Shown: one piece after another, positions 7,811-58,620 of the stretch
How the letters are laid out: the number at the start of each line of letters is the position of its first letter
Numbering within the stretch: the first letter of the stretch is position 1
From: Paraburkholderia azotifigens
GTDB taxonomy: Bacteria > Pseudomonadota > Gammaproteobacteria > Burkholderiales > Burkholderiaceae
Assembly: GCF_007995085.1 (NCBI RefSeq)
Contig: NZ_VOQS01000003.1
Location: 186,001-250,000 of the forward strand
Length of the DNA stretch: 64,000 nucleotides
Direction of reading: 5' to 3'
Made by a program: the position numbers and the translations under genes
Notes under the pieces: generated by a model
What the model was told of the DNA's origin: nothing
Databases searched by the model: none
The model's input: only the letters and a program-made list of their open reading frames with translations

Positions 7811-7842
7811 CTTACTTTCTTTGCGGCGGCAAAGAAAGTAAG
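7811..7842. repeat. Perfect 14-bp hairpin upstream of nrdJ
   Basis: CTTACTTTCTTTGC and its exact complement are separated by GGCG. A slightly mismatched version in the other orientation lies at about 6127-6160. It belongs to the intergenic repeat, and the IS5 right end abuts it. Confidence 0.75.
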
Positions 7843-8021
7843 TGCCGCCCCGCACAGGGGCAACGCTAATAAACCAGAAGCAAACCGCGGATGCCAGCGC
7901 AGCAAAAACCAAAAGCAAAAAAAACAGAATGGCGACTACGTCGCAGACAAGAAACCCAAACCTTGCTATGGTGAACCCTACCTGCGACGCCCACACCGTC
8001 GCGCCATCCTTGAGAAAGCCC

Positions 8022-10565: not shown

Positions 10566-10599
10566 CCGGCCGCAGTTTTTACCTGATATGCGTGTGGGA

Positions 10600-10664
10600 G
10601 ACACCATAAGTTGATATATGGACAGCAAAAGGTGATATATCGGACAGCATAAGTTGATATATTG
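10600..10664. repeat. Iteron-like array of 21-22 bp direct repeats
   Basis: Three head-to-tail units of 21, 22 and 22 bp share GACA(G/C)CA(T/A)AAG(T/G)TGATATAT. A degenerate partial unit (ACCTGATATGCG) precedes and GTCGACATAATGG follows. The regular period suggests a multi-site protein-binding array, such as a plasmid iteron, a recombinase arm site or a Tn7/IS21-type transposon end. Confidence 0.7.
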
Positions 10665-10676
10665 GTCGACATAATG

Positions 10677-11868: not shown

Positions 11869-13731
11869 TCACATCTGGTCTTCGAGGCTGGTGGCACCAA
11901 GCATTCCGATGCGCTCCCAGTCCGCCAGACCTCGAGGCACTCTGATCGTGAATGCGCCGAACGCGGCGTTCCACTGCTTTCCCGGGCGCTGTCGAAGTTC
12001 ATAAATGGCAAATCCGCCTTTTCCATCTTCGCCTCCGTAACCCGCAATCTTCGTCACGTCACCCGAAATGTCACTCTCGTTGAATGTGCACAGGAGGTAG
12101 GTGCTTTCTTCCACGGCATCGCCTAGCCAAAAGCGCAGTCCCTTCTGCAGCAGCCAATGTCCGCGAAACTGAGTACCGGAGGTTTCTCGATGAGCCCTGA
12201 GATAGTGGTAAAGCCAAAGCATCTCCAGCGTCGAGGGAAGACGTCCCATGCGCGCGGGCTTCGATTCGACCGGATTGGTCAGGTTTGGTCGTCTCAGCAG
12301 GCCTAGCTCCTTGGTCACTTCGCGCGCAATCGAAGAAAGAGGTTCCAGATAGACCGTCAGGTCATCCTCTTGCCGCACTGACGAAAGGAACCGCCATGTC
12401 ACACCACGAACGAGATCGGTGAGGGTGACAACTTCGTCGTCTACGGTGGCTCTGTAGGAGTCCATGAACCACTGATCATTGATGCGTGTGGATGCTTCGT
12501 CGAGGCCACCGGACTGGACAACTGCGGTCAGTTGGGATTTCGATAGACGGGTTGGATAAGCGTCACGTTTGAGCAACGGTAGCAGGCGAGTTGCCGATAC
12601 ATCTCTGGAGAAGATACAGGCAACTGCCTCGTCGCGGCCTTCGGTGGCAGCGTTCCGGCCGATAAGCAGTTGCGTCATCAGGTCAGTCCATGCAACGGAA
12701 AAACATTCGCTCACGCCGTCGAGTGCTGCCGCAACAAACAGATACTCAAGAATAGAGCGGTGCGCGAACTTGTAGCATCCGCTTATATCGCGATTCAGCA
12801 ATGAGCGTGACGTTAACTTCCAGCTTTCCGTGTTATTCCCAAACGCGTCGGCGATTGATGCCAATTCCTCGGGCGCGAGCCTGTCCATGCCTCCGGCCTG
12901 TTGCTGCAAATAAACTCTAATTGCAAGGCTCTTCGAGATGGCAAGCAACGTCGCCTGGTCTATCCAGTCACTTTCACGCTCCAGCCATTTATCAACCATG
13001 TAGGCATATAGGTCGAATATCTCAGTAACGGTCGCCCCGTCTTTAGCAAGGTCGGGCACTAACGCAAGCAACATAGGACGCACCGACAGTTCGGGTATCG
13101 ACGCTATCAGTTCCTTGGCCCGAAGGCGAGCGCGCAGCGCCGACAACTTGAACCAAGGAAGATGAGATCGGATGTATTGATTGATCTGTCGCTCAGAGAA
13201 CGGGGCGAGGTAGAGACGGCGCATCGCGTATTCTCGCCCCTCCCCCGCCTTTCTCGGACCTAGGCGCATAATCCCACTTCCAGAGGGGATCTCGTCGTCA
13301 TGAAGAAAAAATTGCGATCTGCAAGTGACAATCACGTGCTGGAAGCTTCTAGCGTTTTCCATCAACTCGGCAAATCGCGCTTCCTTGTCCCGGATTGCGA
13401 GTGCGTCTTCATCAAACGCATCCAGGAACAGTGTGGTTTCGTGAGGCGTAGGAATTCCTGCAATGATTTCCAACGCATTGGCGCGCCCAAGTGGCACGAT
13501 CGCGATCTTTCGTGATTTCCTGAACCTGGCGTAGAAATTAATGCAGAACGTAGTCTTGCCCATGCCAGAATCGGCGAGAAGTATCAGATGAAGGGGTTCG
13601 CGCCCGGCATCCGTTAGCTTCAGAATCGCGCCTAGCAGGTTGCTGAAGTACCGGCGGCTTACGTCATCGCGGAAGGCCCCTGATGCGTTGATATTAGGCC
13701 CCTCACTTGCCCACTGGAGATTATGCGCGGC
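11869..13731 (-). pseudogene. STAND/NACHT-type NTPase, 3' part (5' end removed by IS)
   Basis: About 615 residues remain. Walker A is ADSGMGKTT, Walker B is TTLFLDAFDE, a sensor-like VIVTCRS follows, and FAHRSILEYLFVAAAL is the winged-helix motif typical of NACHT-type STAND ATPases. The C-terminal 200 residues are unrecognised and could be the sensor. The open frame continues to 13797, but its first ~25 codons are merely antisense to the IS transposase, so the native frame ends near 13710-13731. The missing N-terminus is probably the fragment at 14982-15323 on the far side of the IS. STAND proteins often act as anti-phage sensors; this one is likely inactive. Confidence 0.75.
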
Positions 13732-14981
13732 GCCGACACGTTCACCGAGAGTCTGTTTTCCCTGCGAAAGCTGAACGACTTCGTCCCGAAGTCGCATCCG
13801 TTGCGATCGATCCGCGTGATGGCGAACGAAGCGCTGGCGAAGATGGATCGACTGTTTGCCGGGATGTACGAAGCGGACATAAAGGGCGGGCGGCCGAGCA
13901 TTGCGCCAGAGAAGCTGCTGCGAGCCATGCTGATCCAGATCCTCTACAGCGTTCGCTCAGAGCGACAGCTGATGGAGCAGGTTCAATATAACCTGCTTTT
14001 TTCGCTGGTTCATCGGCCTGGCAATGGATGACGAGGTGTGGGTGCCCACGGTCTTCACCAAGAATCGCGAGCGATTGATCAAGCACGACGCGATCATCGA
14101 ATTCTTCAACGAAGTGGTGGCCATCGCTGGGAAGAAGGATCTGCTCTCGGGCGAACACTTCAGCGTCGACGGCACGCTGATCCAGGCGTGGGCGGGGCAC
14201 AAGAGCTTCGTTCGCAAGGACGGTGACGATCAGGACAACGACGGCGGCAGCGCGGACGACTTCAAAGGCAGCAAGCGCAGCAACGAGACGCATCAGTCCA
14301 GCACCGATCCTGATGCGCGGCTCTATCGCAAAGGCAAGACGGCCAGCGAATTGCGGTACATGGGCCATACACTGACCGATAACCGGCACGGCCTGGTGGT
14401 CAACGCGCGCGTGACACGCGCTGACGGGCATGCCGAGCGTGAAGCGGCCAAGATCATGATCAACGACGCGCGGCAAGCGGTAAAGGATGCGAGCGCAGAG
14501 ATCACGCTGGGTGCGGACAAGGGTTACGACGCACAGGAATTCATCGAGGCCTGCCACGAGATGAAGGTCACACCGCACGTTGCGCAAAACAAGTCGGGGC
14601 GACGTTCGGCGGTGGCCGACACGATTGCCTCGAGCGTGGGCTACGCCATTTCTCAGCAAAAGCGCAAGCTGATCGAACAAGGCTTCGGCTGGGCGAAGAC
14701 CGTAGGGCGCATGCGCCAGGCGATGGTGCGCGGGTTGAAGAAGGTGGATCAGATGTTCGTGTTGAACATGGCGACCTACAACCTCGTGCGCCTGCGGTCC
14801 TTGGCAGAGGTCCGTCCATCGTGAAAGTAAACGCGGAAAATGAGACCAGAAAATGGCCTCAAAACGCTTAAAAGAACATTGAATTCGCATTGAATTCGCA
14901 CAATGTGAAAAATCTTGCGGCGAGAGCCGCGTAATTGGAGCGAGGCCGCTTCAGCTCGGGTGTATTTCAGCAGCCTGCTAG
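13708..14981 (+). mobile_element. IS5/IS1182-type insertion sequence inside STAND gene
   Basis: The element carries a frameshifted transposase (13723-14824). Its right side runs to TTTCAGCAGCCTGCTAG at 14965-14981, which looks like its terminal repeat. I could not find a matching inverted repeat on the left, where element sequence seems to begin only about 15 bp before the transposase ATG. The left end may be truncated, so the boundary is approximate. Confidence 0.6.
13723..14824 (+). pseudogene. IS5/IS1182-type transposase, frameshifted
   Basis: The first part (13723-14031) reads RGADTFTESLFSLRKLNDF onward and the second (from about 14000, open from 14024 to 14824) carries the DDE core: VDGTLIQAW, LGADKGYD and EQGFGWAKT. 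They are in different frames. The break is at a run of six T at 13995-14000: removing one T restores the expected NLLFRWFIGLAMDDEVW. Joining the frames needs a +1 shift, unlike the -1 programmed slippage usual in IS elements, so this is probably an inactivating insertion. Confidence 0.75.
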
Positions 14982-15323
14982 AAGCTGACCCTGCACTGGA
15001 ACGTTGCGGAGATCGGCCTCATCAGAAGGATCGATCGAGCTGGCGTCTGGCCAGACGTAGCCGCTGATAGCGTCGCGAATCTCGTTTTTGCTGAAGGATA
15101 CGACCTGTGTACGCTCCAGCATCTCTCTTGCGGCCTTCGTGGCCGTCATGCCAAGCACGGCCTTCCGCGTCCAGACAATCGCCTTTGTCACAGCTGTGGC
15201 CGACGCAATAGCACCCGTCAAAGCAGCAATCAGAAGCTTTACGTCGGGATCGCTGGCGATTTTCGCAAATTCTCGCCACAGATCGGTCCTCGTTATGTTT
15301 GAAATGTTCGAGAGGTCCAGCAC
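14982..15323 (-). pseudogene. Probable N-terminal fragment of the IS-split STAND NTPase
   Basis: From the ATG at 15323 about 114 native residues are read before the frame enters the IS end, where it gains AGC and a stop at 14967. Residues about 28-50 (LLIAALTGAIASATAVTKAIVW) form one hydrophobic segment, suggesting a membrane anchor. The fragment is on the same strand and directly abuts the IS that truncates the NACHT frame at 13.7 kb, so it is most simply the other half of that gene. Joining is inference; a few codons may be lost at the junction. Confidence 0.55.
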
Positions 15324-15500: not shown

Positions 15501-16710
15501 TCAAACTGCTCGGCTCAAACCATCGTAGAGCGTCGACAGTGGATCGGTGTCGACTTCGAAATCGACTGGATCGGCGTCTCTAGCAACGGTTCTTTTGTGA
15601 AGGAATCGGTAGTTGAGTGACTCGACTTCGACCACACGCTCGCTTCCTTCAACAATTGAGAAGCTGTCCGGAACAAAGCAAGCGACATTGACTCCTTTTG
15701 CCAGACTGCTTCGGAAAGCTACGCCCTCGAATCCACTGTTACGAAACGCGTCACAAAGAGTTTGAGTCAGCGCATAGAAGTCCTTTCTCTCCGGTTGAAC
15801 CGGCAGGTTCAGCAAGGCGCTGAACGACAGAATGCGGCGTAGAAGTTCCAAACGGTCATCGCTAAGGAAGAGACGGATGTCGTATCGAGCGAAATCAGCA
15901 ATAAGTATCGGTCGATCGTTGACGAATTGCGCTGTCGAGACGAGGTGTCCCGGATGCGGGCGTAACTCTGCTACAGCTGTTTCTTCGTCCGTCGCCAGAT
16001 AAAGGATCGATTCCCGATGGCGATTTAATCGTCCTTCACTAGCGACCAACACTGGCGGTGCCGAAATTTCTGTCCCGGTGTATGGCTCGAAGAATCGATC
16101 GTCACGCCCCAAATCCCCACTCGTCGGCGTAAAGCGCTGCTTCACACCTATCCGTGCACGATGGAAAACGGTACCCGGATCGATGTGTGACGACACATAC
16201 CCTTTACCGCATTCAGCAATTCCTTGATTCGCGTTTCAACCTCGAAATGATTCTTCTCGAATACCAAACGGAGAGCTTGAACCAGCTCGCTGTCCAATGC
16301 AGCGCTCAGGCCGTATAACGCATTTCCGTTCCAATACCCTCCGCCCAATTCAATATCCTTTGAGCTTTCGGGATACCAGTCCTCCCAAATGCTCAGGAGG
16401 TGCTGCTCGAAATCAAGCTCCGTCGTAGTTACAGGGTCCAGATCGAAGATGCGCTTACTGGCGTATAACAGGCTTTGCAGTTCATCACCGCCTAAATGGC
16501 CGTTATATTCCCACTCCGAAAAGTGCAGTCGTATCAAGGCACGGACGATACGTCGAATCGTCGGATCGTCCGCGGGCAATCGACGCCCCCTGACTTTCTG
16601 CAAACCTCGCACTCGTCGTGGCTTGCAACACCTCGAAAAATTAGCTCACGCTTCAGGTCGTTTTCAGCACAGCAGTGTTCGCATAGCGTTGAAACGGACG
16701 ACTCGGGCAT
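15501..16710 (-). pseudogene. HEPN/RES-type NAD-targeting effector with two frameshifts
   Basis: Three successive frames make one family-like protein. Frame 1 (ATG 16710 to about 16580) has a zinc-ribbon-like start, CEHCCAENDLKREL and CEVCRKSGG. Frame 2 (to about 16195) has ADDPTIRRIVRALIRLHF and the helical HEPN_RES N-terminal region. Frame 3 (to 15501) is a RES domain with FHRARIGV, YLATDEETAVAELRPHPG and GVAFRSSLAKG, holding the Arg, Glu and Ser positions after which RES is named. Each join needs one missing base, in CCCGCGG near 16580 and AAAGGGTATG near 16190. RES domains degrade NAD or ADP-ribosylate. Alternatively frames 2 and 3 (16148-16612; 15501-16196) could be translated from GTG starts as separate overlapping proteins. 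Confidence 0.65.
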
Positions 16711-16867: not shown

Positions 16868-17431
16868 TCAAAATGAAGCTGGACGAGGGCCCAGCGGCGG
16901 CACCTGCATTGGAACGTTGTGAAGTTCCCGAACCAGATCCCTGTACGCGTTTTGCGCGTCCGGCCCGTCGGTCAGGTCCACATATCTTCGTCCCTGCAGA
17001 TCTGGCGGGACGAAAGCTTCGCCAGCAGAAGATCGACGCACAACGGGAATGAATTTATTCGTTCCAATGTCGCGCACGATATGGCTGCTTACGAGCATCT
17101 GTTCGTAGCCCACCCCTCCCTGTCGTTCGTATCCCCTACGCACATATTGCTCGGTCGCGATAACAAGCACGCGATCACTTTCGCGGACACCGCGGACCAT
17201 AAATGAGCTCAGTTCCTCGCCAAGTCCAAGATGCCACTGATCAAGGACGATATCGATGCCATCGCGCCGCAGTGAAGTCGCCAGCTGCGCGACCCACGTA
17301 CGATGCTCCGGCGAATCCCACGAATACGAGACGAAGACACGTGGAGGTCGCGCTTGCGGCGCAAGCGTCGCGGTGGATGTTATGCCTGCACGTGTAGAAC
17401 GTGACCGAGATCGACATTCTTGACCGCCCAA
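16868..17431 (-). CDS. SEFIR/TIR-like domain protein
   Basis: The 187-residue frame contains a SEFIR domain from about residue 30: RVFVSYSWDSPEHRTWVAQL, then DGIDIVLDQWHLGLGEEL, VRESDRVLVIATEQYV and FIPVVRR. SEFIR is related to TIR and acts in adaptor or NAD-cleaving immune effectors. The only available start is a TTG at 17431, without ATG or GTG before the domain, and it overlaps the preceding gene by 52 bp in another frame. It is therefore either a weakly initiated second cistron or the C-terminal half of a frameshifted protein that began at 17793. Confidence 0.72.
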   Translation of the reverse strand: MGGQECRSRSRSTRAGITSTATLAPQARPPRVFVSYSWDSPEHRTWVAQLATSLRRDGIDIVLDQWHLGLGEELSSFMVRGVRESDRVLVIATEQYVRRGYERQGGVGYEQMLVSSHIVRDIGTNKFIPVVRRSSAGEAFVPPDLQGRRYVDLTDGPDAQNAYRDLVRELHNVPMQVPPLGPRPASF

Positions 17432-17793
17432 TGGGTGCGGTTAACCTCCCACTTTGACTCGATGTCCAGTGCGCCCCACAGGCCAGCGAAAATGTCTGGT
17501 GGTATTCCGGGTACGGCAGGATCGAGCGCAAACGTCAAGCCAAACTCTGACTGCCTACGCATCAGTCCGGTAATCCTGCCGACCCGGGCCGGTGCCTGAA
17601 CATACTTCTCGTATGCAAATAGGGTGGGGAGTGATATCAGCGCATCGAGAGCACTCTCGTCCGAAATGCTGAAACGTTGCTTCACGCTATCGTGCGTGTA
17701 TTCGAAGACCCGGTCGTAGCCCATCGTCCACGATGTACCGGTCCAAGCTTCGTCATTACCGGACATCAGCAGATTGTAGTATTGGTTTTGCAT
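17380..17793 (-). CDS. Putative N-terminal partner or half of the SEFIR protein
   Basis: The 137 residues start at an ATG with GAGAGG five bases upstream. The stretch WEVNRTHWAVKNVDLGHVL near the end resembles sequence that I recall preceding nucleotide- or TIR/SEFIR-type domains in bacterial proteins, so it may naturally be fused to the SEFIR domain. The frame stops at 17380, and the SEFIR signature resumes 17 codons later in another frame. No transmembrane segment is seen. It follows the ABC-3C ATPase by 150 bp on the same strand. Confidence 0.6.
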   Translation of the reverse strand: MQNQYYNLLMSGNDEAWTGTSWTMGYDRVFEYTHDSVKQRFSISDESALDALISLPTLFAYEKYVQAPARVGRITGLMRRQSEFGLTFALDPAVPGIPPDIFAGLWGALDIESKWEVNRTHWAVKNVDLGHVLHVQA

Positions 17794-17943: not shown

Positions 17944-19890
17944 CTAGTTCGATAGCGGCCAGTCTTGCGGGATAAGCTTGACCCCATTTCGCCAACGCTC
18001 GCGCACAGCCGCCTGAAACCGTGGATCATCGCTGAAGTCAGGATGATCCGTAATAATGATCTGGAAGCGGCCTTCCTCTTTTTCGATCACGTCGAATATC
18101 AACTTGTAAAGGGCTTTGACGGCCTTCCGGTCGGTATCGATTTTGGTAGGATCCAAATTTTCGCGCTGTTCGGCATCAGGAGAGAAATGCGCCTGCGAAA
18201 GCTGATCGAGCAGAAGAAATGAGGGAACGGGACGCTTTCGCTCCGCGAACCACTTGTGCAGGGCAAGATGCGCAACGATGTGGTAGCCAACGTGGTTCTC
18301 TCCGCTGCCAATTTCTCGCATCGGGATCGGCCGATTCGGTGTGTCTGCAACAATGGTCAGCGCCCTCGGGTCGAGGCGCAGCGGACTATCAGAGTATTCG
18401 AGGTCTACACGTTCAGCGTAGTCGGAAAGACTGCGATTGACGTTGGATAGACACGACTCCAGACGTTCCTGGATGGCGTCGGTACTGACGGCTTCGTAGA
18501 GCTCCAGTTCCAGCTCTCTGAGCTTTGCAAGCTTGTTGCGTTGCTCACTTACGTCGGGCATCTCCGGAATGTTTTCGACGTACAGGCTGATACGTCCAAC
18601 AACTAGGGCCTGACGAGCCTCCGTGTCCGACGCGAGCTGTAGTCGCTTGCTTGATCGCTTGATGGAGCCGAGCAACTCGCGATTCGCCTCCAAATCGCGA
18701 CGGTTTTCGATGAGTTTTTGTTCAATCTCAACAATTGCGGATTCAATGCGTGGCGTCGCCGAATCCATCGCGCCGCCGCGCTCTCCGATCGTGTCCTTTG
18801 CTGTACGCAGTTCACCGATTGACGGCGCGGCTGACGCTGCCGGAAGATCCTGCTGGCACAATGGACACGCATGATCCTGAGCTGAGGGTTCGAAAACGGA
18901 GATGGCGTCCAACCGGGCGACATGCTCAGCGGCTTCCTTGGCGAATCCGCGGGAGTTGCCTTCAAACGCGCGTGCCCTGTCTATTGCAGCCTGGATAGCA
19001 CGTTGCGCCTGCGTTAACTCGGTACGTTTTTGTGTCAGTCGATTGAATTCGGCCTGATCATCACCATCCGCAACAGGTGGAGCAATCGGAGAGTTCTGTA
19101 TCCGTCTTAGGACTTCCACTTTGTCGGCCCACGAAGCGTCATCCGCGAGGTCGGATAGCCCGACCGATTTAGCCTCTGCCAGCAGGGTGTCAGCACGACT
19201 CACGCCGTCGCCGACGATTGCGGACGCTTCGGCCAGCCGCTTTTCGAGTTGCCGGATTTCGGCGCGGACCTGCTTCAGCAATTGCTGGTTCCGAATGTAT
19301 TCGTCTGTAACGGCGCCAAGAAAGTATGGCAACGTGTCCTTGATCGCCTGGGCCACGAAGCGATCGCTAGCACCGTGAAACAGGACGCCCTTCTGGCCAA
19401 TCTCGTTTTGTGACTGGAAGCAAAACGTAAGCGCGTGATTGAAGGTCGCGGACAGCGGCGGACGTGAGTGTCCTGCCGGCGGCTCGTGCAGATAGTCCGT
19501 TATGCCCACCCAAGACGCTAGCATCGCCGCCAGTCCGGCGGAATTTGTGGTCTGCCGAAGTTCGGCGGCTTGCGGAATATCGAGCGATTGGCCAATCTTG
19601 ATGAAAACTGCCTCGCTCGATTTGCCGTTAGCCGCCGGCAGCTTCCGCGCGATAAACGTCTGCCCGTGGGTTGTCTGCAATAAAAGACCAAACCATGCGG
19701 CGCCCCGCCGGATGATTCCCTCCGGAACATCGAGCGTGGATGAGCCGAAGCAATAGTCGATTACGCCGAGGATTGCAGATTTGCCCGTGCGCGAGTCGCC
19801 GGAGATGATGTTCACCTTTCCGGGCTCCAATGGCAAAACCCGGTGACGGCCGTCATGGCTATATGAGACGATCGCTCTTATCTGAATCAT
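17944..19890 (-). CDS. ABC three-component system ATPase (DUF3732, SMC/Rad50-like)
   Basis: Translation from the ATG at 19890 (MIQIRAIVSYS) gives 648 residues. Walker A is GDSRTGKS (residues 31-38). Two long helical arms flank a Rad50-type zinc-hook CPLC (342-345). The ABC signature-like IGSGENHVG is at 527-535, Walker B FLLLDQLSQ at 558-566, and the switch His is in IITDHPD (613-618). This is the DUF3732 ATPase of ABC three-component (ABC-3C) conflict systems, predicted computationally to sense or act on invader nucleic acid. Its ATG overlaps the middle-component stop in ATGA, showing translational coupling. All motifs look intact. Little experimental work on these systems is known to me. 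Confidence 0.85.
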   Translation of the reverse strand: MIQIRAIVSYSHDGRHRVLPLEPGKVNIISGDSRTGKSAILGVIDYCFGSSTLDVPEGIIRRGAAWFGLLLQTTHGQTFIARKLPAANGKSSEAVFIKIGQSLDIPQAAELRQTTNSAGLAAMLASWVGITDYLHEPPAGHSRPPLSATFNHALTFCFQSQNEIGQKGVLFHGASDRFVAQAIKDTLPYFLGAVTDEYIRNQQLLKQVRAEIRQLEKRLAEASAIVGDGVSRADTLLAEAKSVGLSDLADDASWADKVEVLRRIQNSPIAPPVADGDDQAEFNRLTQKRTELTQAQRAIQAAIDRARAFEGNSRGFAKEAAEHVARLDAISVFEPSAQDHACPLCQQDLPAASAAPSIGELRTAKDTIGERGGAMDSATPRIESAIVEIEQKLIENRRDLEANRELLGSIKRSSKRLQLASDTEARQALVVGRISLYVENIPEMPDVSEQRNKLAKLRELELELYEAVSTDAIQERLESCLSNVNRSLSDYAERVDLEYSDSPLRLDPRALTIVADTPNRPIPMREIGSGENHVGYHIVAHLALHKWFAERKRPVPSFLLLDQLSQAHFSPDAEQRENLDPTKIDTDRKAVKALYKLIFDVIEKEEGRFQIIITDHPDFSDDPRFQAAVRERWRNGVKLIPQDWPLSN

Positions 19891-20402
19891 CGCTGAAGTC
19901 CCAAAAGCGCAAGCGTGGTACCGGATGTTCCGTTTTTCTGTAGCCAGCGGCCCACAAACTGGCCCCGGCGGGCGCAATCCTGCACATCAGGACTCGCGTG
20001 TTTCACATAGGTCGTCATTTTCTTTTTTGCGCTGCCAATCGGAGCCAGGTTCGGCCCGGCCGTCATAAGCGCCCCGTGATGAACGCCAAAAATGATTGCT
20101 TCCCTCACGTAGGGGCGCAATATCTCGACTCCTTTTGCGATCGTGGATCGCTCAAGCGGATTATCCTGAAGCCAGGCGATGAGAGAGGTTCTGATGGTGC
20201 CGGGCAGCTTCGAGCGCGTCTGGCCACGAAGCACGAGGCTTGCACCCACAAACGAAAGTTCCAGCGGCAAACCGCTTTCGCCCGATCCCGTGGAGAGCGC
20301 CTCCTCCCTGTATCCGAGCGCAATGTGCCACAAGACAACGGCACAGAATGCAGGATTCAGGAGATTGCGCTGCTCAATCGTTCGCTCATGCCATGATGTC
20401 AT
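19887..20402 (-). CDS. ABC three-component system middle component
   Basis: The 171-residue protein has no enzymatic motif that I recognise and resembles the small helical middle components (MC) encoded between the effector/CTD gene and the ATPase in ABC-3C operons (starting ERTIEQRNLLNPAFCAVVLW, the kind of opening typical of MCs). It overlaps both neighbours by 4 bp (ATGA at each junction), so the three are co-translated. Its likely job, from published in silico analysis of the family, is to bridge effector and ATPase. Confidence 0.8.
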   Translation of the reverse strand: MTSWHERTIEQRNLLNPAFCAVVLWHIALGYREEALSTGSGESGLPLELSFVGASLVLRGQTRSKLPGTIRTSLIAWLQDNPLERSTIAKGVEILRPYVREAIIFGVHHGALMTAGPNLAPIGSAKKKMTTYVKHASPDVQDCARRGQFVGRWLQKNGTSGTTLALLGLQR

Positions 20403-21613
20403 GACGTACTACCCTCGACGTGCAGGTCGAGAAGTGCTTCCAGACGCCCCGCAAAATCGGGATGCCAGCCAAGCCGTCGCTCGTCGGCAAGCATATGCAA
20501 AGACCCGCGGCATACCCACGGAACACTCACGCCTTTCTTGATAGGCACCAGTCCGTCTTCCGCCCACTTCAGAATTGCCCGGCCTGCCCGCATCATCTCT
20601 TCTTCGCCTGCGGTCTCTTGCAGTTCATCACAAACCTGGGAGCGGATAAGTTCCCACTCGCGAAGCAGCCGTGTTTCGTACTGCTTCAGATCAGTCTCAA
20701 AAAGCAGATCATGACGGGTCCAGAGGGATCTCTGACGGAATGCCTGCAAGTAACTGGTGATCGCATTGTGGATGCGGGACCTGCTGCCGCCAACCAGTTC
20801 GACCTGCTTGTAGAACGGGCGGTCAGCAAACTCTGGCAAGGAATCGAGCGCGACCATCAGCGCATCGATCTCGTGATCAATAGGTAATGAATCAGGCTTC
20901 AACGATTCCTGTATTTCAAGAATCTGTGCATCCATTTCGGCACGGCTAATGCCCTCATCTGCACTTACGAGTCCGTGGACCACGCGGCGCAGCCACCAGC
21001 CCTCAAGCATCTGGACAGCCATTTCATGGTGATGGAGCGAGACATGGTAAAGCTCTGACTGCAACTGGTCAGTGATTTCGTCCACGTTCGGCTGCGCTGG
21101 CACCACGAAGATGTTCTCGAGGAGCGCCCTTCTCGCGCTGTCCTCCAAGGCGAGATAGGCATTGAAGATGTCCGAAAGTTCTTCGTTCGTTGACGTAGCG
21201 GCGGCGTGCTTCAAGAGCTTCGCTGCAGTGTCCACGTTCCGCTTCGACTGGTTGCAGGACAGTGCCTCACATACCGTTCCTTCCGAGACGGTGGACGTCG
21301 TGATCAGGAAATGCGAGACGGCTACCGGGATCTCACCGGACGAAGAACCGACCAGCCAAACGCGTAAGGTCTTCCAGAGCTCGGCGCTTAGGTCACCAAG
21401 GCTCGCGGCGGTATTCAGAGCATGTTTCGTTTGCAACACCGCAACAGGATCACCGTCGACGTGAAAACTGACGTCATCGAGTACTTCAATTCTGACGACG
21501 AAGTCTGCTATCCGGCTTTTTCTGATTGCCCACACCAGCGCAAGCCGCACCTGATACAGATATCCGAGCATCGACGGCCCGGCGTTGAACGCACTGACGC
21601 TAGTCTGCTTCAC
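20399..21613 (-). CDS. ABC three-component system CTD protein with nuclease-like N-terminus
   Basis: I start at the GTG at 21613 because AGGAG lies nine bases before it; the frame can be extended 14 codons to an ATG at 21655 with no ribosome site. The 404-residue protein opens with GYLYQVRLALVWAI, then RIEVLDDVSFHVDGDPVAVLQTKHAL, the spacing of Glu, Asp and Gln-x-Lys seen in PD-(D/E)xK nuclease cores such as DUF4297-type dsDNA nucleases. The C-terminal half is helical and matches the CTD role in ABC-3C systems. It is the first gene of the operon and the probable effector. The nuclease assignment is motif-based. Confidence 0.75.
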   Translation of the reverse strand: MKQTSVSAFNAGPSMLGYLYQVRLALVWAIRKSRIADFVVRIEVLDDVSFHVDGDPVAVLQTKHALNTAASLGDLSAELWKTLRVWLVGSSSGEIPVAVSHFLITTSTVSEGTVCEALSCNQSKRNVDTAAKLLKHAAATSTNEELSDIFNAYLALEDSARRALLENIFVVPAQPNVDEITDQLQSELYHVSLHHHEMAVQMLEGWWLRRVVHGLVSADEGISRAEMDAQILEIQESLKPDSLPIDHEIDALMVALDSLPEFADRPFYKQVELVGGSRSRIHNAITSYLQAFRQRSLWTRHDLLFETDLKQYETRLLREWELIRSQVCDELQETAGEEEMMRAGRAILKWAEDGLVPIKKGVSVPWVCRGSLHMLADERRLGWHPDFAGRLEALLDLHVEGSTS

Positions 21614-21987: not shown

Positions 21988-23151
21988 TTACAGAGGGTCA
22001 GCCTGTTCGAGTTCGCGCACCGTCTCAGCGTGCCGCCGGTCATCTTCGGCATGCAGATAGATGCCAGTCGTCTGGATCGATGCATGACGCATGTTTTTCT
22101 GGATGAAGCGCAGGTCGGTACCGGCATCGGCCTGATGGGTCGCCGCGCTATGACGAAGCCAATGGGTCGAAGCGCGGCGCAGTGTCGTGGCACCTGCCGG
22201 ATCGTCCGTCGCAAGCATATCGGCGGCCCGTCGGAACACTTCCTTGACGATCAGATAGACGGCTGCCGGGGTCAGGTGTTTGTGCGGATCGCCCACCACA
22301 CTCATCACTGCGGCCGCCGTCTCGCTGCCCGACGGCGTCGGTGCGAGCCGATGAAAGACCCGGTACCGGGCAAGGTCAGCCATCAGCGCCGAGCTCACCG
22401 GCACCTCGCCTTCGCTGCCGCCCTTGCCGATCACGTGCAGCCACCACTTGCCCCGACGCTGGTAGAAATCGGCCATTTTCGCGTTCGCCGCTTCCGACAC
22501 CCGCAGCCCCGTGTGGTACAGCAGGCGGATCAGCCAGCGGCTGCGCTCATGGTGTTGCTGATCACGCGCGGTGACCCGCGGCCACTGCTCGACGCTGGCC
22601 AGCACGTGATCCCAGAGCGCGTGATCCAGATACCGTTCGACCCGATGCGTGCGCCTCGCGGCCGCGCCCGTCCGGCGGCGCAGTGCGAGCGGATTGCCGG
22701 CCAGATAGCCGGCACTGACCAGATAGGACAGCAGGCCGGACACGATGCCGAGCGCCTGATGCCGGCTGCGCTCGGACAGCGGCCCGTCAATGAGCCGGCG
22801 GGTGCGGCCGCGTCGCGGCCGGGCCGGATCGACCCAGTCGCCCGCGGGCGCTGCGAGAAACTGCTCGTACACCAGGAAGTCCTCGCGCGTAAGGCTCGAG
22901 ACCGGCTTGCCCAGCGCCTGGGTGGCCCACAGCAGCAGCCGCACCGCCTCCTTGCGATAGCTGCGCAGGGTGTGCGGCGAACCCGCATATTCGGCGAGCC
23001 ACAGGCGCACGGCCTCCACGTCCGTGTCGGCCGCGATCTGCAGGTGACCGCCGCGTGCACGATTGTTGCCGTTGCGCCCGTCGAGGGCCGCAGGCAGCGC
23101 GATCGACAGCGCCGGTTCGGGCGATTGAGAGGCGATGGCGGGCAGATTCAT
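21988..23151 (-). CDS. Tyrosine recombinase / site-specific integrase
   Basis: The 387-residue protein has an N-terminal SAM-like core-binding domain (about 45-165) and a C-terminal catalytic domain with the tyrosine-recombinase set: Arg in HTGLRVSEAA, His-x-x-Arg in HWLRHSAATH, His in MRHASIQTT and the nucleophile Tyr in GIYLHAE. It looks intact. It is divergent from the KfrA-like gene across a 166-bp region with two inverted repeats. This pairing is typical of integrative islands, and the enzyme is the best candidate for mobilising the defence block to its left. Confidence 0.92.
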   Translation of the reverse strand: MNLPAIASQSPEPALSIALPAALDGRNGNNRARGGHLQIAADTDVEAVRLWLAEYAGSPHTLRSYRKEAVRLLLWATQALGKPVSSLTREDFLVYEQFLAAPAGDWVDPARPRRGRTRRLIDGPLSERSRHQALGIVSGLLSYLVSAGYLAGNPLALRRRTGAAARRTHRVERYLDHALWDHVLASVEQWPRVTARDQQHHERSRWLIRLLYHTGLRVSEAANAKMADFYQRRGKWWLHVIGKGGSEGEVPVSSALMADLARYRVFHRLAPTPSGSETAAAVMSVVGDPHKHLTPAAVYLIVKEVFRRAADMLATDDPAGATTLRRASTHWLRHSAATHQADAGTDLRFIQKNMRHASIQTTGIYLHAEDDRRHAETVRELEQADPL

Positions 23152-23317: not shown

Positions 23318-24262
23318 ATGAGCCGCGTCAGTGATACCCGCCTTCGCACGCGTGAAACCGCTGCCCGCTTGGTCGCCTCTGGCCGCCCCTCACACGAAAT
23401 CACTGTCGACCTCATCTATGCGGAAATTCGTCAGGGTAGCCGCACCACCATCAATGACGAACTGAAGCTGTGGAAGGACGAGCAGGCGCGCAACGACGCG
23501 CTCAGCGCAGCGCTGCCGCCTGCAGTTGCCGACGCCATGCTGTCGTTATGGGCGCTTGCAGTTGTGCAGGGCGAACAGGTCTTCGCGCGACGCAGCGAAG
23601 AAATCGAAATGGAAGCAGCGACCGCGACCACGCAGATCGCTTCGCTCGAGACTGCAAATGCAGCGCTTCAGGCTGAAATGCGGAGCCTGCGTGTTCAGGC
23701 CGACGAGCAGCACGCGAGACTCGCTGCCGTGTTGACCGACCTTGCGCAGGCGCAAAGCGGGCGGGACGCGGCACTGCGGCAGGCCGAAGCCGCCATTGCC
23801 GACCGCGACGCCGCGAGCGCGCGATCGGAGCAGGCGCTTCGCGAGACGCGACTGACCCATATCCGCGAACTCGAAACTTTACGGCTCGAACACATGGAGC
23901 ATGAGGCTGCATTGCGTGCAGAGGTCATTCAGGCAACTTCCCGACTGGAGGCAGTCCAGAAACACGTCATGCTGCAGACAGAGGACGCACGAGAATCGCA
24001 ACGAAGGGCCGAGTCCGTACTATCAGAGATACGCAAACGCAATGAGCGACTGGTCGGCGACGTCGAGCGGACGTCCGCGGATGCCGCCGAGCAGAGGCGC
24101 CTTGCCGAGCGGCACGAAAAGCTACTCGATCGTGTAACCGAAGAGGCGCATCAGCTACGCCTCGAACGCGATACGCTGGCTCAGCAGATGGCGTTACTAC
24201 ACGGGCAAATGAGGGCGAGCGGAAAGTCGTTGCCGTCCCGTCGAAACAGACCTCTTCGGTGA
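23318..24262 (+). CDS. KfrA-like DNA-binding coiled-coil protein
   Basis: The 314-residue protein starts at an ATG with GGAGAT in front. Residues 1-110 are a KfrA_N-type DNA-binding domain (TRETAARLVASGRPSHEITVD, then IYAEIRQGSRTTINDELKLW). The rest (about 80-300) is an almost uninterrupted alpha-helical coiled coil rich in Ala, Glu, Arg and Gln. KfrA proteins are plasmid-borne autoregulators and nucleoid-like structural proteins. Divergent placement with the integrase suggests it represses both genes through the inverted repeats between them. Confidence 0.85.
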   Translation: MSRVSDTRLRTRETAARLVASGRPSHEITVDLIYAEIRQGSRTTINDELKLWKDEQARNDALSAALPPAVADAMLSLWALAVVQGEQVFARRSEEIEMEAATATTQIASLETANAALQAEMRSLRVQADEQHARLAAVLTDLAQAQSGRDAALRQAEAAIADRDAASARSEQALRETRLTHIRELETLRLEHMEHEAALRAEVIQATSRLEAVQKHVMLQTEDARESQRRAESVLSEIRKRNERLVGDVERTSADAAEQRRLAERHEKLLDRVTEEAHQLRLERDTLAQQMALLHGQMRASGKSLPSRRNRPLR

Positions 24263-24564
24263 CGCATCTCATTGTGCGAGAGGGGAGTATGCCGAGTCGC
24301 ATAGTCCACTCTGGCCATGGATTACCACCTCGCGCGTAACGCCCTCCCGTAACCACTCCAGTGTTCGCGGCACAACAGGGCGGTTCGCGAGGTGGGACTT
24401 TCTCAACCCTGTCACGTACAACTCCTCGAGTATCAAGCCGACGTCGAATAAGTCAAGCTTCCAAGACACTGCCTCAGGTTGCACATAATAACAATTAGCA
24501 ACGTTTTGGGGCCAGATCATCCGCTACTTTCCAACCGCAACCGGCTAGGCCATCTCCAAAAGGT
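24263..24564. other. Island right flank; possible 83-codon frame on minus strand
   Basis: A minus-strand frame (24269-24520, ATG with GGAAA upstream) could encode 83 residues but has no family signal. CCACCTCGCG near 24324 and CGCGAGGTGG near 24385 form an inverted pair. No attachment-site duplicate of the left island end was recognised. Confidence 0.3.
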
Positions 24565-25653
24565 TCATGGCTCCAAGACACCGTCGTGTCCGACTCCCGC
24601 GACGGCCCGAAGCAACGGCGGGTGACGGGCCACGGTCAAGCCCGTGTAGACATCGAGGTATCGCAGCGCCATCGTCCTGGATGTGAAGCGATTTTCGAAC
24701 TGATCCCGCACGCTGCTACGCGAAAGACCATCGAGTTGCGCCACTGCGCGCACTGCTTCGGTTACATCGCCCACAATGTATCCGGTCACGCCGTGCTCAA
24801 CCACTTCCGCTGTCGAACCGCGATTGAACGCGATAACGGGCGTGCCACACGCCATCGCCTCTATCATCGCCAGACCGAAGGGTTCGGGCCAGTCAATGGG
24901 AAACAGCAGCGCACGGGCGCCTGACAGGAACGCGGGTTTCTCGGCCTCATTTATCTCGCCGAGGAAGTCGACGTGAGGCTGCGCCAGCAGCGGCTCGATT
25001 ACGCTGCGGAAATAGGCTTCGTCAGCCTTGTCCACTTTCGCGGCAATCTTGAGAAGCATACCGGCCCGGCCGGCAATTTCGATAGCCAGATCAGCGCGCT
25101 TTTCCGGACTGATCCGGCCCAAGAAGGCCAGATACGTTGGCTGCACGTGCGGCAGCGGCGTCAGCAGCGACGCTGGCACCCCGTGGGGGATCGTATCAAG
25201 CCAGTTTGCGCTGGGAAGCGGCGCCCGCTGCGACTCGGAGATTGACACTACCGGTGCCTCGGAAAATACATCGAACACTGGCCGCAGTTCCGGCAGATCG
25301 AGACGGCCGTGCAATGTGGTCAGGAACGGTGTACCAAGCTGCGAGAAGACCGGGAACGGCAAGTAGCTGAGATGGAAATGCAGTATGTCAAAGTCGGGAG
25401 CTTTGCGACGAACCTGTTCAAGCATCACGAGGTGCGGCGCAAGCGGATCGCAAACTGACGGATCGGAACGTAGCGACTGCGGCCACGCTACCTCGAGGTG
25501 TGCCCGGGTGCGCGAGTCGCCACTCGCGAACAACGTGACATCATGGCCGAGGTCGATCAGGGCTTCCGTCAAATACGAAACTACTCTTTCTGTTCCTCCA
25601 TAAAGCGCAGGGGGTACTGCCTCGTCTAAAGGCGCGATCTGTGCGATACGCAT
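24565..25653 (-). CDS. Glycosyltransferase family 4 protein
   Basis: Translation from the ATG at 25653 (GGAG seven bases upstream, MRIAQIAPLDEAVPP) gives 362 residues, usual for GT4 enzymes. The N-terminal Rossmann half has PALYGGTERVVSYL, the donor-site half has YLAFLGRISPEKRADLAI and the EX7E-type region PEPFGLAMIEAMACGTPVIAF with two glutamates. It probably transfers a sugar from a nucleotide-sugar to a polysaccharide or glycolipid at the cytoplasmic face. It stands alone on the strand, so the acceptor cannot be told. Confidence 0.88.
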   Translation of the reverse strand: MRIAQIAPLDEAVPPALYGGTERVVSYLTEALIDLGHDVTLFASGDSRTRAHLEVAWPQSLRSDPSVCDPLAPHLVMLEQVRRKAPDFDILHFHLSYLPFPVFSQLGTPFLTTLHGRLDLPELRPVFDVFSEAPVVSISESQRAPLPSANWLDTIPHGVPASLLTPLPHVQPTYLAFLGRISPEKRADLAIEIAGRAGMLLKIAAKVDKADEAYFRSVIEPLLAQPHVDFLGEINEAEKPAFLSGARALLFPIDWPEPFGLAMIEAMACGTPVIAFNRGSTAEVVEHGVTGYIVGDVTEAVRAVAQLDGLSRSSVRDQFENRFTSRTMALRYLDVYTGLTVARHPPLLRAVAGVGHDGVLEP

Positions 25654-26077
25654 TGGGCGACTCCATTGCAAACCGATATCGGCGAGCACGCGGGCGACCA
25701 AGGCAAACCTGACGCTGTTTTCTGTCATAACCCTGCGTAAGTCCGCGACGCCAGTGCCTTGGCGAACGTGCTCGAATCCAGCATGCGGCGTTCCCAAACC
25801 GTAAATGTTTCATGAGTGCGCTCGACGCGGCTATCGGTGCGCCACTGCTCGCCCCTCTTTCCAAACCGCATCCGTTGCAGGGCTTTGGCCTTGGCTCGGG
25901 GGGCTGGATTATTGTCACAACGGCACTCGCAGTTTTCGTTGGCCCGTACCCGCCGTCCAACTGGCTGCGTTGCCATGGCCTTCGCGAAACAGTCGCTCGT
26001 GTGCCCGCCGCGGATGCGTCGGTGCACATCACGGGCTTCGGTGCTTTTGGGTCAATTCTCCGTGGACATCAACAGAT
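25654..26077. other. No supported gene
   Basis: A 420-bp spacer upstream of the glycosyltransferase gene. Open frames on the plus strand here lack ribosome sites and family features. Confidence 0.35.
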
Positions 26078-26356
26078 CTACGTTACCGACGCGATTGATT
26101 CAATGTCTGGAGCGTATAGGCAACCGTCGATGAAAGTGTGTGCCCGCCGCTCCGCATATGAAAATGCTTCTTCACGTGACAAGAAATCAAGCTGTTGCGG
26201 GAGGCTGGTGACTGCCGTTGCGGGCAAGCCTGACGAAAGAATCGACCAGGAGACGGAGTACCGAAGCTCCTTGCCATTGAGTGAAACAACGTTGTTCGCC
26301 ATGACCCGGACGTCAATTGTGAATCCGCGATACGGCGCACAGGACTGGGTTTGCAT
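26078..26356 (-). CDS. Small YRGF-type protein
   Basis: A ribosome site AAGGAG lies 5 bases before the ATG at 26356, giving 92 residues; the longer frame upstream is not supported. It begins MQTQSCAPYRGFTIDVRVM, an N-terminal pattern (Y-R-G-F/Y-x-I/L) shared with two other small genes in this window, at 36033 and 54710. Predicted mainly beta at the N-terminus and helical later (SREEAFSYAERRAHTFID). No signal peptide. The function is unknown; genes of this kind sit among stress genes here. Confidence 0.6.
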   Translation of the reverse strand: MQTQSCAPYRGFTIDVRVMANNVVSLNGKELRYSVSWSILSSGLPATAVTSLPQQLDFLSREEAFSYAERRAHTFIDGCLYAPDIESIASVT

Positions 26357-26678
26357 AACTGCTCCTTTTCCAGGTGATCGCCGATATGCGAGAGATATAG
26401 AACGAAAGCGCACCCCGCATTCCTGCCGGTTCAATTCATAGACACGGCCAGTTCGCGGCGCATTGTTGCGCGCGCGTCGAACGTCTGCCAACAACCGCCC
26501 AGATAGGCTTTCGAACCCGAATTTCGCGAAAGAGGAGCGTGATGTGATGTTTGTAGCGCAACGGCTGCTCCCGGGGGCGCAGTGGGGAAAAAAAGAGGCC
26601 TGACATGCCGCATCACCCGGTTGCGTTGTATGACCCATTCAGCCCGACTTCAGCACGGTACGCATTGCCAGCGCCAAA

Positions 26679-27896
26679 TCAGCCCGCATCCAGAGCGTAC
26701 CGTCGGCAATGTTCGAGGTAGCCGACCTCGTGGCTACCCACGAGGTCGACAACGCTTTTCCACAGCCACGTGGGTGCTTCGATTGATTTTGATTTTGTAC
26801 GTCGCAACTCGGAGATCCAGCGCTTGCGATCAGCGTGGCTCATTTGTCGTGCGTGCGCATGGCCCACCACGAGGGCCAGGTAACGCGCGACCTCCATGGC
26901 TTCTTTCGGTCCGATCTGCTCGATCTCCAGCTTCAGATCTTGTGGCAATAGCTCGCGCAGCACGACCGGTCGATCCTGGAGAGTCGCCGAACGCATACGT
27001 TCGCCGAGATGAGGCGACAGGTGGCGGGCGCCCTCAACGACTCGCTCCGCGTTGTCTCTGGGCATCACCGCGTCCGCGTAATGCGGAGCAGCTGCCTGCA
27101 CACCTTCCTTGATATCTATCAGGCACAGGTCGTCACCCTCTATCGCACCACCATCCACATCGAGAAGAACCGCGTAGCGGAGTCGTCCGAGCGAACTGCA
27201 ACCCTTGACCCAGTATGCGGCATCGAGCACCGTCACATCGCCCGTGTCTGGACGCCCGCGCAAACCCGTAGCGAGTTCTGCCAGAGTATGTATCTGAAAA
27301 AGCGATTCGATTTCGGCTCGCTCTTTCTGGCTGATTGGCCAGAAACGATTGCCGAAAGGTATCGTGGGCTGCATATCGTCCAGTCTCTCGCGCGCAAGAT
27401 GCTTCCACGTGCGTCGCACGGCCTCACGCATCACTACACGCACCACCTCTGGTCTCTCGCCAGGCTCCTGCGAGGCCGTCTCTTTCGAGAACGGTTGCAA
27501 ATACCCCTCGAAGAGCGCCTCGATCATGTTGATGGTGGTAATGCCAGGAAGTGCCGACCCTCGCGCGGCGGTCGCCAAAGACAATCCGAGGCGAACGAGA
27601 TCATGCACGGGGTTACCGATGACGGTTTGATCGAGGTCGCGAATCTGAACTTCGATTTTCCCCTGAGAGTTCGCTATCGGGCCACGATTGCCTGTGTGGC
27701 GGTCACCACTGATCCAGATGGCAGGACCTTCAGGCAATCCCCGAATTTCCGCTTCCTTCAACCAGTCATAGAATTTGATCGTGTTGCCGCGCACGTAGGC
27801 GTGCGTAGAGCTGGCCATCTTCACATTGCGTCTGGCCGTCAATACGTCCTGCCGGCGCGCATGGCGTGGGACTTTCGGTTTCAGAGGCTTGCGCAT
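26679..27896 (-). CDS. DUF2252 family protein
   Basis: The 405-residue protein matches the DUF2252 family over its length: an N-terminal segment ending in FYDWLKEAE, then the hallmark WISGDRHTGNRGPI and VQIRDLDQTVIGNPVHDLVRL, and late VVGHAHARQMS. GDxHxxN followed by a downstream Asp resembles the catalytic loop of kinase-like aminoglycoside phosphotransferase folds, so a phosphotransferase activity is possible but undemonstrated. The gene is monocistronic, on the same strand as the small genes after it. Confidence 0.88.
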   Translation of the reverse strand: MRKPLKPKVPRHARRQDVLTARRNVKMASSTHAYVRGNTIKFYDWLKEAEIRGLPEGPAIWISGDRHTGNRGPIANSQGKIEVQIRDLDQTVIGNPVHDLVRLGLSLATAARGSALPGITTINMIEALFEGYLQPFSKETASQEPGERPEVVRVVMREAVRRTWKHLARERLDDMQPTIPFGNRFWPISQKERAEIESLFQIHTLAELATGLRGRPDTGDVTVLDAAYWVKGCSSLGRLRYAVLLDVDGGAIEGDDLCLIDIKEGVQAAAPHYADAVMPRDNAERVVEGARHLSPHLGERMRSATLQDRPVVLRELLPQDLKLEIEQIGPKEAMEVARYLALVVGHAHARQMSHADRKRWISELRRTKSKSIEAPTWLWKSVVDLVGSHEVGYLEHCRRYALDAG

Positions 27897-48325: not shown

Positions 48326-48545
48326 GGGTACTTCCTGCAACATCGGTGAATTCGACGGCCTGGGGGATTCCCATCGGCGCGATACCCTTGACAGGCAAAC
48401 CGCATACCACGGGACGTGGTCACATGGCTCGCCCAGTCGATGATCTTCCCGTCACCGGTACTGACACCACACGTTGGGCAGACATACACGTTGAATAAAC
48501 AGGCGTTTCTTTGTTTCTGGACGATCCCCTGCGCCGTACTCTCAA

Positions 48546-56149: not shown

Positions 56150-56317
56150 TGCGTATTTCGGACGAACGTGACCGGCCGTTTCGGGATGGTGACCGGCGAT
56201 TTCGGCAACGTGACCGATCATTTCGGAAACGTGACCGAGCGGACCGGAAGGCGGGATTGGCGTTGCGCATGACATCAACCACGCGGGCTATGCTCGCCGG
56301 CTTTGGCCGGAGAGACG

Positions 56318-57841: not shown

Positions 57842-57852
57842 AGAAGACCACC

Positions 57853-58620
57853 ATGATGATGCAACAGACACTGACGCAATTGCGCACCCTGAAGCTGGAC
57901 GGCTTCGCTGACGGCCTGGAAGAACAATTGACGCAGCCCGGTGCGGCCAGCCTGAGCTTCGAGGAACGCCTGTCACTGCTGGTCGACCGGGAAGCCAGCT
58001 GGCGTGATGATCGCCGTCGTACCCGATTGCTCAAGCAGGCGCGCCTCAAATATCCGCAGGCCGCTATTGAGGATCTCGACACGCGCGCTGGCCGTGGCGT
58101 CGATCCGCGCTCGCTCACGAGCCTCGCACTCGGTGACTGGGTGCAAGCGGGCTACAGCCTGCTCATAAGCGGCCCAACTGGCGCGGGGAAATCGTGGCTC
58201 GCTTGCGCCCTGGCCCAATACGCTTGCCGGCGCGGGCATTCAGCCTTGTATCTGCGCGTGCCGCGACTTGGCGAGGAGCTTCGCGTTCTGCACGGCAACG
58301 GCGGCTTCACAAAATGGCTGCTGCAGGTTGCCCGCGTCGACGTGCTTCTACTGGACGATTGGGGAATGGCGCCCCTCGATGCGATGGTTCGAAACGATCT
58401 GCTCGAGATGATCGATGACCGCTCGGCGGGAAAGGCGACCATCGTCACCAGCCAGTTACCGATTGAGCACTGGCATGGATGGATCGGCGACGAGACTATC
58501 GCCGACGCAATGCTCGACCGCCTCATGCAGCGTCATCATCGGATCACGCTTACCGGTGAATCCCTCAGAAAGGCATCCCCAAAACCCAACGTCCTGGAGC
58601 CCGAACTCGACCAGAACTAA
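57853..58620 (+). CDS. istB: IS21 helper ATPase IstB
   Basis: 255 residues, an AAA+ DnaC-like ATPase: Walker A ISGPTGAGKSWLACAL, Walker B VDVLLLDDWGMAPL and sensor-like VTSQLPIEHWHGW. It assembles target DNA for IstA. It lacks frameshifts, so the element looks functional. Confidence 0.95.
   Translation: MMMQQTLTQLRTLKLDGFADGLEEQLTQPGAASLSFEERLSLLVDREASWRDDRRRTRLLKQARLKYPQAAIEDLDTRAGRGVDPRSLTSLALGDWVQAGYSLLISGPTGAGKSWLACALAQYACRRGHSALYLRVPRLGEELRVLHGNGGFTKWLLQVARVDVLLLDDWGMAPLDAMVRNDLLEMIDDRSAGKATIVTSQLPIEHWHGWIGDETIADAMLDRLMQRHHRITLTGESLRKASPKPNVLEPELDQN

Follow-up and report, generated by a model that had tools for sequence, protein, structure and literature searches.

A predicted Lamassu type II operon carried by a Tn7-like transposon behind nrdJ in Paraburkholderia azotifigens

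The three-gene operon and its proteins

Three overlapping minus-strand genes lie within a 64,000-nucleotide stretch of Paraburkholderia azotifigens DNA (assembly GCF_007995085.1, contig NZ_VOQS01000003.1, positions 186,001 to 250,000), hereafter called the window. The genes span window positions 17944-21613 and encode proteins of 404 amino acids (aa; 20399-21613, GTG start), 171 aa (19887-20402), and 648 aa (17944-19890, ATG start), with ATGA overlaps at both junctions. This layout had been described in an earlier reading of the sequence (the original prediction) and was upheld when the letters were re-read. A mechanical list of open reading frames holds longer forms of two of the genes, 418 aa from 21655 and 677 aa from 19977. 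The 404-aa form agrees with its homologues, which are mostly 402-406 aa long among the 120 listed of 647.

Profile searches place all three proteins in known families. The Pfam matches are DUF3732 (PF12532, 2e-51) for the 648-aa protein, MC3 (PF20131, 2.6e-25) for the 171-aa protein, and CTD7 (PF20283, 1.8e-34) for the 404-aa protein, and the PADLOC models for Lamassu recognize the same proteins as LmuB (3.6e-129), LmuC (1.4e-5), and LmuA (1.4e-57). Each protein also has a counterpart subunit in solved Lamassu complexes. Because the Pfam E-values are this low and the gene order is kept in 11 of 12 related loci, a chance match is excluded. In two of these 11 loci (L007 and L011), LmuA is matched only in part, at a contig end. 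These matches bear out the original prediction of an ABC three-component (ABC-3C) operon; in particular, both the middle protein and the protein with the C-terminal domain match ABC-3C families.

The operon thus belongs to a kind of system that is already known, and that has been tested and solved before. The Lamassu superfamily is described as taking in ABC-3C and DdmABC (PMC10586767), and three-gene clusters of the ABC-3C/DdmABC kind are named Lamassu type II (PMC12409362). Phage and plasmid phenotypes are on record for Lamassu type II/DdmABC (PMC10586767, PMC12409362). The statement in the original prediction that experimental data are sparse is therefore outdated, since DdmABC phenotypes and solved Lamassu complexes exist. 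We consider it highly probable that the operon is an intact Lamassu type II (ABC-3C, DdmABC-like) system carried as cargo of a 90,485-base-pair (bp) Tn7-like transposon, with a defense role predicted from its family.

The 648-aa protein (lmuB, 17944-19890, minus strand) is a Rad50/SMC-like ATPase (SMC, structural maintenance of chromosomes) of the DUF3732 family. PDB entry 9hqu_A matches its residues 3-644 (3.6e-61). Its motifs were examined in an alignment of 20 rows, comprising the window, 10 of the 12 related loci (all but the truncated L004 and L011), and 9 of 19 genus loci, with 7 further genus places yielding no locus; rows L003 and L023 share one genome. The Walker A motif GDSRTGKS (residues 31-38, 19777-19800) is absent from one truncated relative among these rows, and the zinc hook CPLC (residues 342-345, 18856-18867) appears as CPxC in 17 of 20. 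The ABC signature GSGEN (residues 528-532, 18295-18309), the Walker B motif LLLDQ (residues 559-563, 18202-18216), and the switch histidine H616 (18043-18045), which lies in ITDH at residues 613-616, complete the set, all on the minus strand and all as originally described. In Walker B, glutamine replaces the catalytic glutamate, a detail beyond the original motif list, and DQ is present in 20/20 rows. The same replacement is reported as a general LmuB trait (PMC10586767).

For the 171-aa middle component (lmuC, 19887-20402, minus strand), the assignment comes from profile and fold matches. A profile built from 34 sequences matches the LmuC chains of solved complexes at 1.4e-4 to 9.5e-4, with 9uxh_D at 1.4e-4, and a close relative of the protein is named DUF6521 and bears PF20131/MC3. 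An AlphaFold2 model of the protein has a predicted local distance difference test score (pLDDT) of 89.5. Only two PDB fold matches to this model fall below 1e-3 and both are LmuC chains, from the entries ‘type II Lamassu, LmuACB with DNA’ and ‘Salmonella enterica Lamassu LmuACB in nuclease sequestration state’. Identity in the LmuC fold alignment is just 17-18%.

The 404-aa effector (lmuA, 20399-21613, minus strand) combines a probable Cap4-like nuclease part at its N terminus with a CTD7 domain at residues 267-389 (20447-20815, minus strand). The LmuA chain of a solved complex, 9nxx_A, matches residues 11-391 in a profile search (1.1e-19). A putative active site, E43-x-L-D46-D47 ... Q61-x-K63 (21425-21487, minus strand), is made up of five residues (E43, D46, D47, Q61, and K63) that are invariant in 36/36 aligned LmuA homologues. 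The E..DD and QxK residues of 9hqu_C and 9nxx_A align with these positions. The pattern reads as a putative PD-(D/E)xK motif. The N-terminal part is likely to be a Cap4-like nuclease, and DdmA is reported to carry a Cap4 nuclease domain (PMC12409362).

Several results pull against this assignment of the operon and its effector. A single-sequence PDB search with the 171-aa middle protein gave no match. A Pfam search found no nuclease model matching the N-terminal part of LmuA, and the structure model of LmuA is poor (pLDDT 53.6) and was set aside. The nuclease call for this reason rests on the aligned residues, and 9hqu_C matches the N-terminal part of LmuA only weakly.

Substitution patterns were used to judge whether the operon is intact. 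Against the three nearest loci (L055, L056, and L002), the ratio of nonsynonymous to synonymous substitution rates (dN/dS) is 0.056-0.081 for lmuB, 0.097-0.118 for lmuA, and 0.132-0.296 for the middle gene. Comparisons with the far loci L005 and L008 give 0.080-0.181 where computable, with silent sites saturated (dS >2) and one value undefined. The ratios against the nearest loci indicate that all three genes are under purifying selection. Together with the open frames and conserved motifs, they uphold the earlier description of the operon as intact. A system that is intact in sequence could still be silent in this strain, like its decayed neighbors. The neighboring SEFIR and NTPase genes are broken (see below), and in a relative, P. 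phenazinium LMG 2247 (L004), the LmuB match is 97% identical, its first 97 residues are missing, and neither LmuA nor MC3 is matched in the locus, a pattern that marks L004 as the same Lamassu system in decay. Silence of the window operon is nevertheless rather improbable given that dN/dS is 0.06-0.30 across its three genes and every motif is retained.

Relatives of the operon are spread over several Burkholderiales genera. The Walker, zinc-hook, and signature motifs of LmuB are Rad50-like, as would be expected if the proteins formed a Rad50-like DNA repair complex rather than a defense system. That explanation is very hard to sustain, because DUF3732 occurs sporadically (26/144 genus genomes), each of the three subunits matches both a Lamassu model and its counterpart in solved Lamassu complexes, and the operon adjoins a SEFIR defense gene in the window and Gabija genes in L056.

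The transposon and its position behind nrdJ

The window from position 10593 rightwards lies inside the 90,485-bp element. Its left end (10593-10671, plus strand) consists of TGTGGG and three repeats of ∼22 bp, and is preceded by the pentamer ATGCG (10588-10592, plus strand). The far end is beyond the window: an inverted TGTGGG counterpart lies at G000:C3:287077 (G000 is the source genome and C3 the contig holding the window), followed by a second ATGCG at 287078-287082, so that a 5-bp target-site duplication encloses the 90,485 bp. The element was read apart from G000:C3:250000-256100.

Genes for a TnsA-like protein, TnsB, TnsC, and TniQ lie just inside the right end. TnsB matches Mu-transpos_C (4.8e-8) as well as a TnsAB fusion (1.8e-79) and TnsB (2.2e-63) in the PDB; TnsC matches TniB (8.6e-30), and the 758-aa TniQ protein is matched at 1.1e-9. 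The TnsA-like match is weak (2.5e-6, 27.1 bits against a curated cut-off of 110), and Pfam and PDB searches with this protein gave no match. Inverted TGT...ACA ends, 22-bp repeats of TnsB sites, and a 5-bp duplication are the marks of Tn7-like elements (PMC10702557). The element described here has tnsB, tnsC, and tniQ at one end, inverted ends with a 5-bp duplication, and an insertion at a safe site. The left-end repeat has no second place in its own genome, and a search for long inverted repeats around the island returned short, imperfect pairs only. A Tn3-family transposon was also considered and rejected: a Tn4651-type end pattern gave 11 matches where chance alone predicts 11.8, and no Tn3 transposase is present in the genome.

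The defense island is the left part of a Tn7-like transposon, which the original prediction did not foresee. Compared with the operon itself, this setting is the less expected part of the result. Carriage by a delineated transposon explains why the Lamassu genes sit in a defense island and gives a route by which they can move.

The transposon sits behind nrdJ, the gene for an adenosylcobalamin-dependent ribonucleotide reductase (7842-10565, plus strand; TIGR02504, 575.9 bits against a cut-off of 399.95). In four genomes (G000, G038, G095, and G126), the transposon end lies 27, 27, 29, and 27 bp, respectively, behind the nrdJ stop codon, and the spacer sequences differ. The end motif occurs in 4/141 genus genomes, always with zero mismatches and with the reversed control pattern unmatched, and in 3/398 genomes of a family sample without the fourth carrier, G126. 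Empty sites were sought in 12 distinct genomes, counted apart from the source genome and the three others with an end at the site, and in 7 of the 12 the alignment is continuous across the joined flanks. The comparison drew on 13 loci from a set of 30, on L122-L124 (further stretches of three of the same genomes), and on the three loci in which an end is present.

Some details count against a fully uniform picture of this element and its site. The right-end repeats are less regular than those of the left end, and 5 of the 12 tested genomes do not give a continuous empty-site alignment. The flanks of the nrdJ-side and tns-side ends in G038 differ in their 5-mers, so these ends are not proven to belong to one element. 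The second end was not located in G095 or G126, and only the G000 element is proved complete.

The tns-side end of G038 is a TGTGGG end (L152, 7171) belonging to a tns operon on another contig, whose proteins are 58-63% identical to those described here; the nrdJ side is L133, 11817-11843.

The presence of a tyrosine recombinase would fit a reading of the nrdJ-adjacent island as an ordinary integrase island with coincidental Tn7-like ends. This explanation is already largely refuted and deserves next to no weight, as the ends are inverted TGTGGG sequences with a 5-bp duplication, tns genes lie at one end, and the same end recurs in four genomes at 27-29 bp past the nrdJ stop codon, the reversed control pattern matching nowhere.

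A near-fixed distance behind nrdJ despite differing spacers suggests that target choice is guided by a protein, probably with TniQ as the reader. The near-fixed distance also makes this type of target choice directly testable. The terms ‘ribonucleotide reductase’, ‘Lamassu’, and ‘ABC-3C’ are absent from the main text of PMC8649781, and a ribonucleotide reductase site is unnamed in the main text of PMC10293859 and PMC10702557, the supplements of all three lying outside the scope of the search. The nrdJ site was likewise not met in the passages of Tn7-like literature searched, again with supplements outside the scope, and it may be in print.

Neighboring genes and the recombinase/KfrA pair

Next to the operon, a SEFIR/TIR defense gene (16868-17793, minus strand) is present in two frames. 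An open 308-aa SEFIR copy beside the same Lamassu operon in L055 (genome G064) matches the window in two frames, and the 187-aa frame matches the bSEFIR model at 7.8e-64. Further along, a nucleoside triphosphatase (NTPase) gene (11869-15143, minus strand) is split at 13723-14824 by an element bearing DUF772 and DDE_Tnp_1 transposase domains, probably an insertion sequence (IS) of the IS5 type. The nSTAND3 match of the NTPase (PF20720) is below threshold (4.8e-4, 20.3 bits against a cut-off of 27.2). A 717-aa NTPase homologue from G077 matches 13638-11929 (7e-105) and, weakly, 15143-15000 (6.9e-4).

A 231-aa RES-domain protein is encoded at 15501-16612 with an overlapping 154-aa upstream frame that lacks a family match, so that the two frames may be one broken gene or two genes. 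Frames of RES relatives range from 203 to 501 aa, and a 357-aa homologue (L073) spans the 231-aa frame alone and not the 154-aa one. The original prediction had presented the operon as the one complete system among decayed genes. Its completeness stands, and decay holds for the SEFIR gene in two frames and the IS-split NTPase gene. The claim of decay covers these two neighbors, within the part of the island genes that was examined.

Directly upstream of lmuA is a pair of genes encoding a tyrosine recombinase (21988-23151, minus strand; PF00589, 1.4e-22), which adjoins lmuA, and its divergent partner, a KfrA_N protein (23318-24262, plus strand; PF11740, 2.7e-14). An 88%-identical recombinase adjoins the same operon in G064 and G082. 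Among 18 fetched places from 16 genomes, homology stops just past the recombinase (22011-22054) in 14, enters or approaches lmuA at L053 and L054, and continues through the operon in L055 and L056. The genes found beyond the recombinase elsewhere include E1-E2-JAB with patatin (L061), a DpdE/ZorD-like helicase (L062 and L063), PDC-M30A (L058), and PDC-S06 (L053). In L056, Gabija genes (GajA, 2e-199; GajB, 5e-146) come after Lamassu. The genes scanned with PADLOC at L057, L059, and L065 gave no match, and the neighbors at L066-L069 look ordinary by eye. The pair recurs across Burkholderiales and in Rhodanobacter (L053-L070 and L125-L131) beside changing genes, some of them defense genes and others not. 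In C. taiwanensis, a Tn3-family transposase adjoins the pair.

PADLOC matches were obtained for 8/10 and 3/10 downstream proteins, compared with 2/10 upstream controls, both of which are generic ABC ATPases. The proteins came from 11 of the 18 places (all except L054, L060, L064, and L066-L069) and were chosen by eye; generic helicase or ATPase models account for several of the matches, and some matches are located a good way downstream. The recurrence of defense genes beside the pair is accordingly a lead and carries no statistic. As such, the recombinase/KfrA pair offers a handle for finding further defense genes.

Synonymous divergence bears on how the operon arrived next to this pair. Between the window and L055, dS is 0.17-0.37 for the lmu genes, 0.64 for the recombinase, and 1.1 for KfrA, which would point to the operon having moved on its own to its position beside the pair. 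In the comparison with L056, the values are 0.40-0.66, 0.57, and 0.99, respectively, and the pattern of independent movement fails for the recombinase. A broader scenario is a Paraburkholderia Tn7-like lineage with a TniQ that reads the nrdJ 3′ end and a recombinase/KfrA slot that swaps whole immune modules (Lamassu, Gabija, E1-E2-JAB with patatin, DpdE-like helicase). We offer this scenario tentatively, and would sooner doubt it than rely on it.

Other parts of the window were also noted. Positions 24537-26443 share 96-98% DNA identity with extra contigs of 607-853 kilobases (the whole segment in G052, shorter parts in G134 and G106). The nrdJ DNA of the same three genomes is 86% identical, against 96-98% for this segment, which is probably plasmid-derived cargo. 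The transposon cargo also includes a DUF2252 protein (2.2e-70; 26679-27896). The minus strand holds one uninterrupted frame of 2,872 codons at 39725-48343, and two adjoining frames at 56303-58620 resemble istA/istB of IS21 by eye.

Proposed mechanism and related systems

As the entry titles and the sequences of the solved relatives suggest, two LmuB proteins would dimerize through the zinc hook and, together with LmuC, hold LmuA inactive by way of its CTD7 domain. Aberrant DNA such as the ends, hairpins, or stalled forks of phages and plasmids may then be bound by LmuB with ATP, and LmuA would be released. Since glutamine replaces glutamate in Walker B, the state is probably set by the binding of ATP and not by its rapid turnover. 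Released LmuA would assemble into a tetramer and become an active nuclease that cuts DNA indiscriminately, in which case infection would be stopped and the cell lost. DNA ends, hairpins, and stalled forks are given as triggers for other Lamassu systems (PMC10586767, PMC12904381, PMC12409362), and indiscriminate DNA cutting and abortive infection appear in Lamassu reviews (PMC10586767, PMC12409362). It tells against a full transfer of this scheme that the release and tetramer steps were described for other Lamassu systems, in a review (PMC12409362). Spread of the system would depend on the transposon, whose TnsD-like protein TniQ probably recognizes the conserved nrdJ 3′ end and guides the element to a point 27 bp past the stop codon, so that the gene stays intact.

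A related question is which invaders are the targets. The operon is transposon cargo, and DdmABC, a relative, turns plasmids into a burden for the cell (PMC12409362), so the operon could act chiefly on plasmids and competing mobile elements in the service of its transposon and less on phages. The same review credits DdmABC with phage defense as well, and the present data do not tell the two roles apart. We regard a chiefly antiplasmid role as possible yet on the unlikely side.

Related systems share much of this organization. DdmABC of Vibrio cholerae and ABC-3C likewise combine an SMC-like ATPase, in which glutamine stands for glutamate in Walker B, with a small middle protein (DUF6521 in DdmB) and a nuclease that has its own C-terminal domain (PMC12409362, PMC10586767). 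The likeness is one of description, and DdmABC is carried by VSP-II rather than by a Tn7-like transposon. In solved Lamassu complexes such as 9hqu (Salmonella enterica) and 9uxh (type II Lamassu with DNA), all three subunits have counterparts here. They differ in the low identity of LmuC and in the weak match of 9hqu_C over the LmuA N-terminal part, both given above.

The recombinase and its KfrA partner resemble TnpS/TnpT of Tn4651-type Tn3 transposons (PMC7157771) in that a tyrosine recombinase is paired with a divergent partner, although the genome studied here is without a Tn3 transposase. A tblastn search of 72,556 plasmid records with KfrA matched 14 records, none from Pseudomonas, and kinship with TnpT is thus unsupported.

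Tn7-like transposons with defense cargo are already known (Benler et al. 2021, PMC8649781). Like the element described here, they have repeated TnsB sites at their ends, a tns core, a selector of the tniQ/tnsD type, and defense cargo. The present element differs in sitting behind nrdJ and in carrying Lamassu, neither of which is found in the main text of that paper. With this operon, a family whose mechanism is at present being worked out gains a further complete Lamassu type II member.

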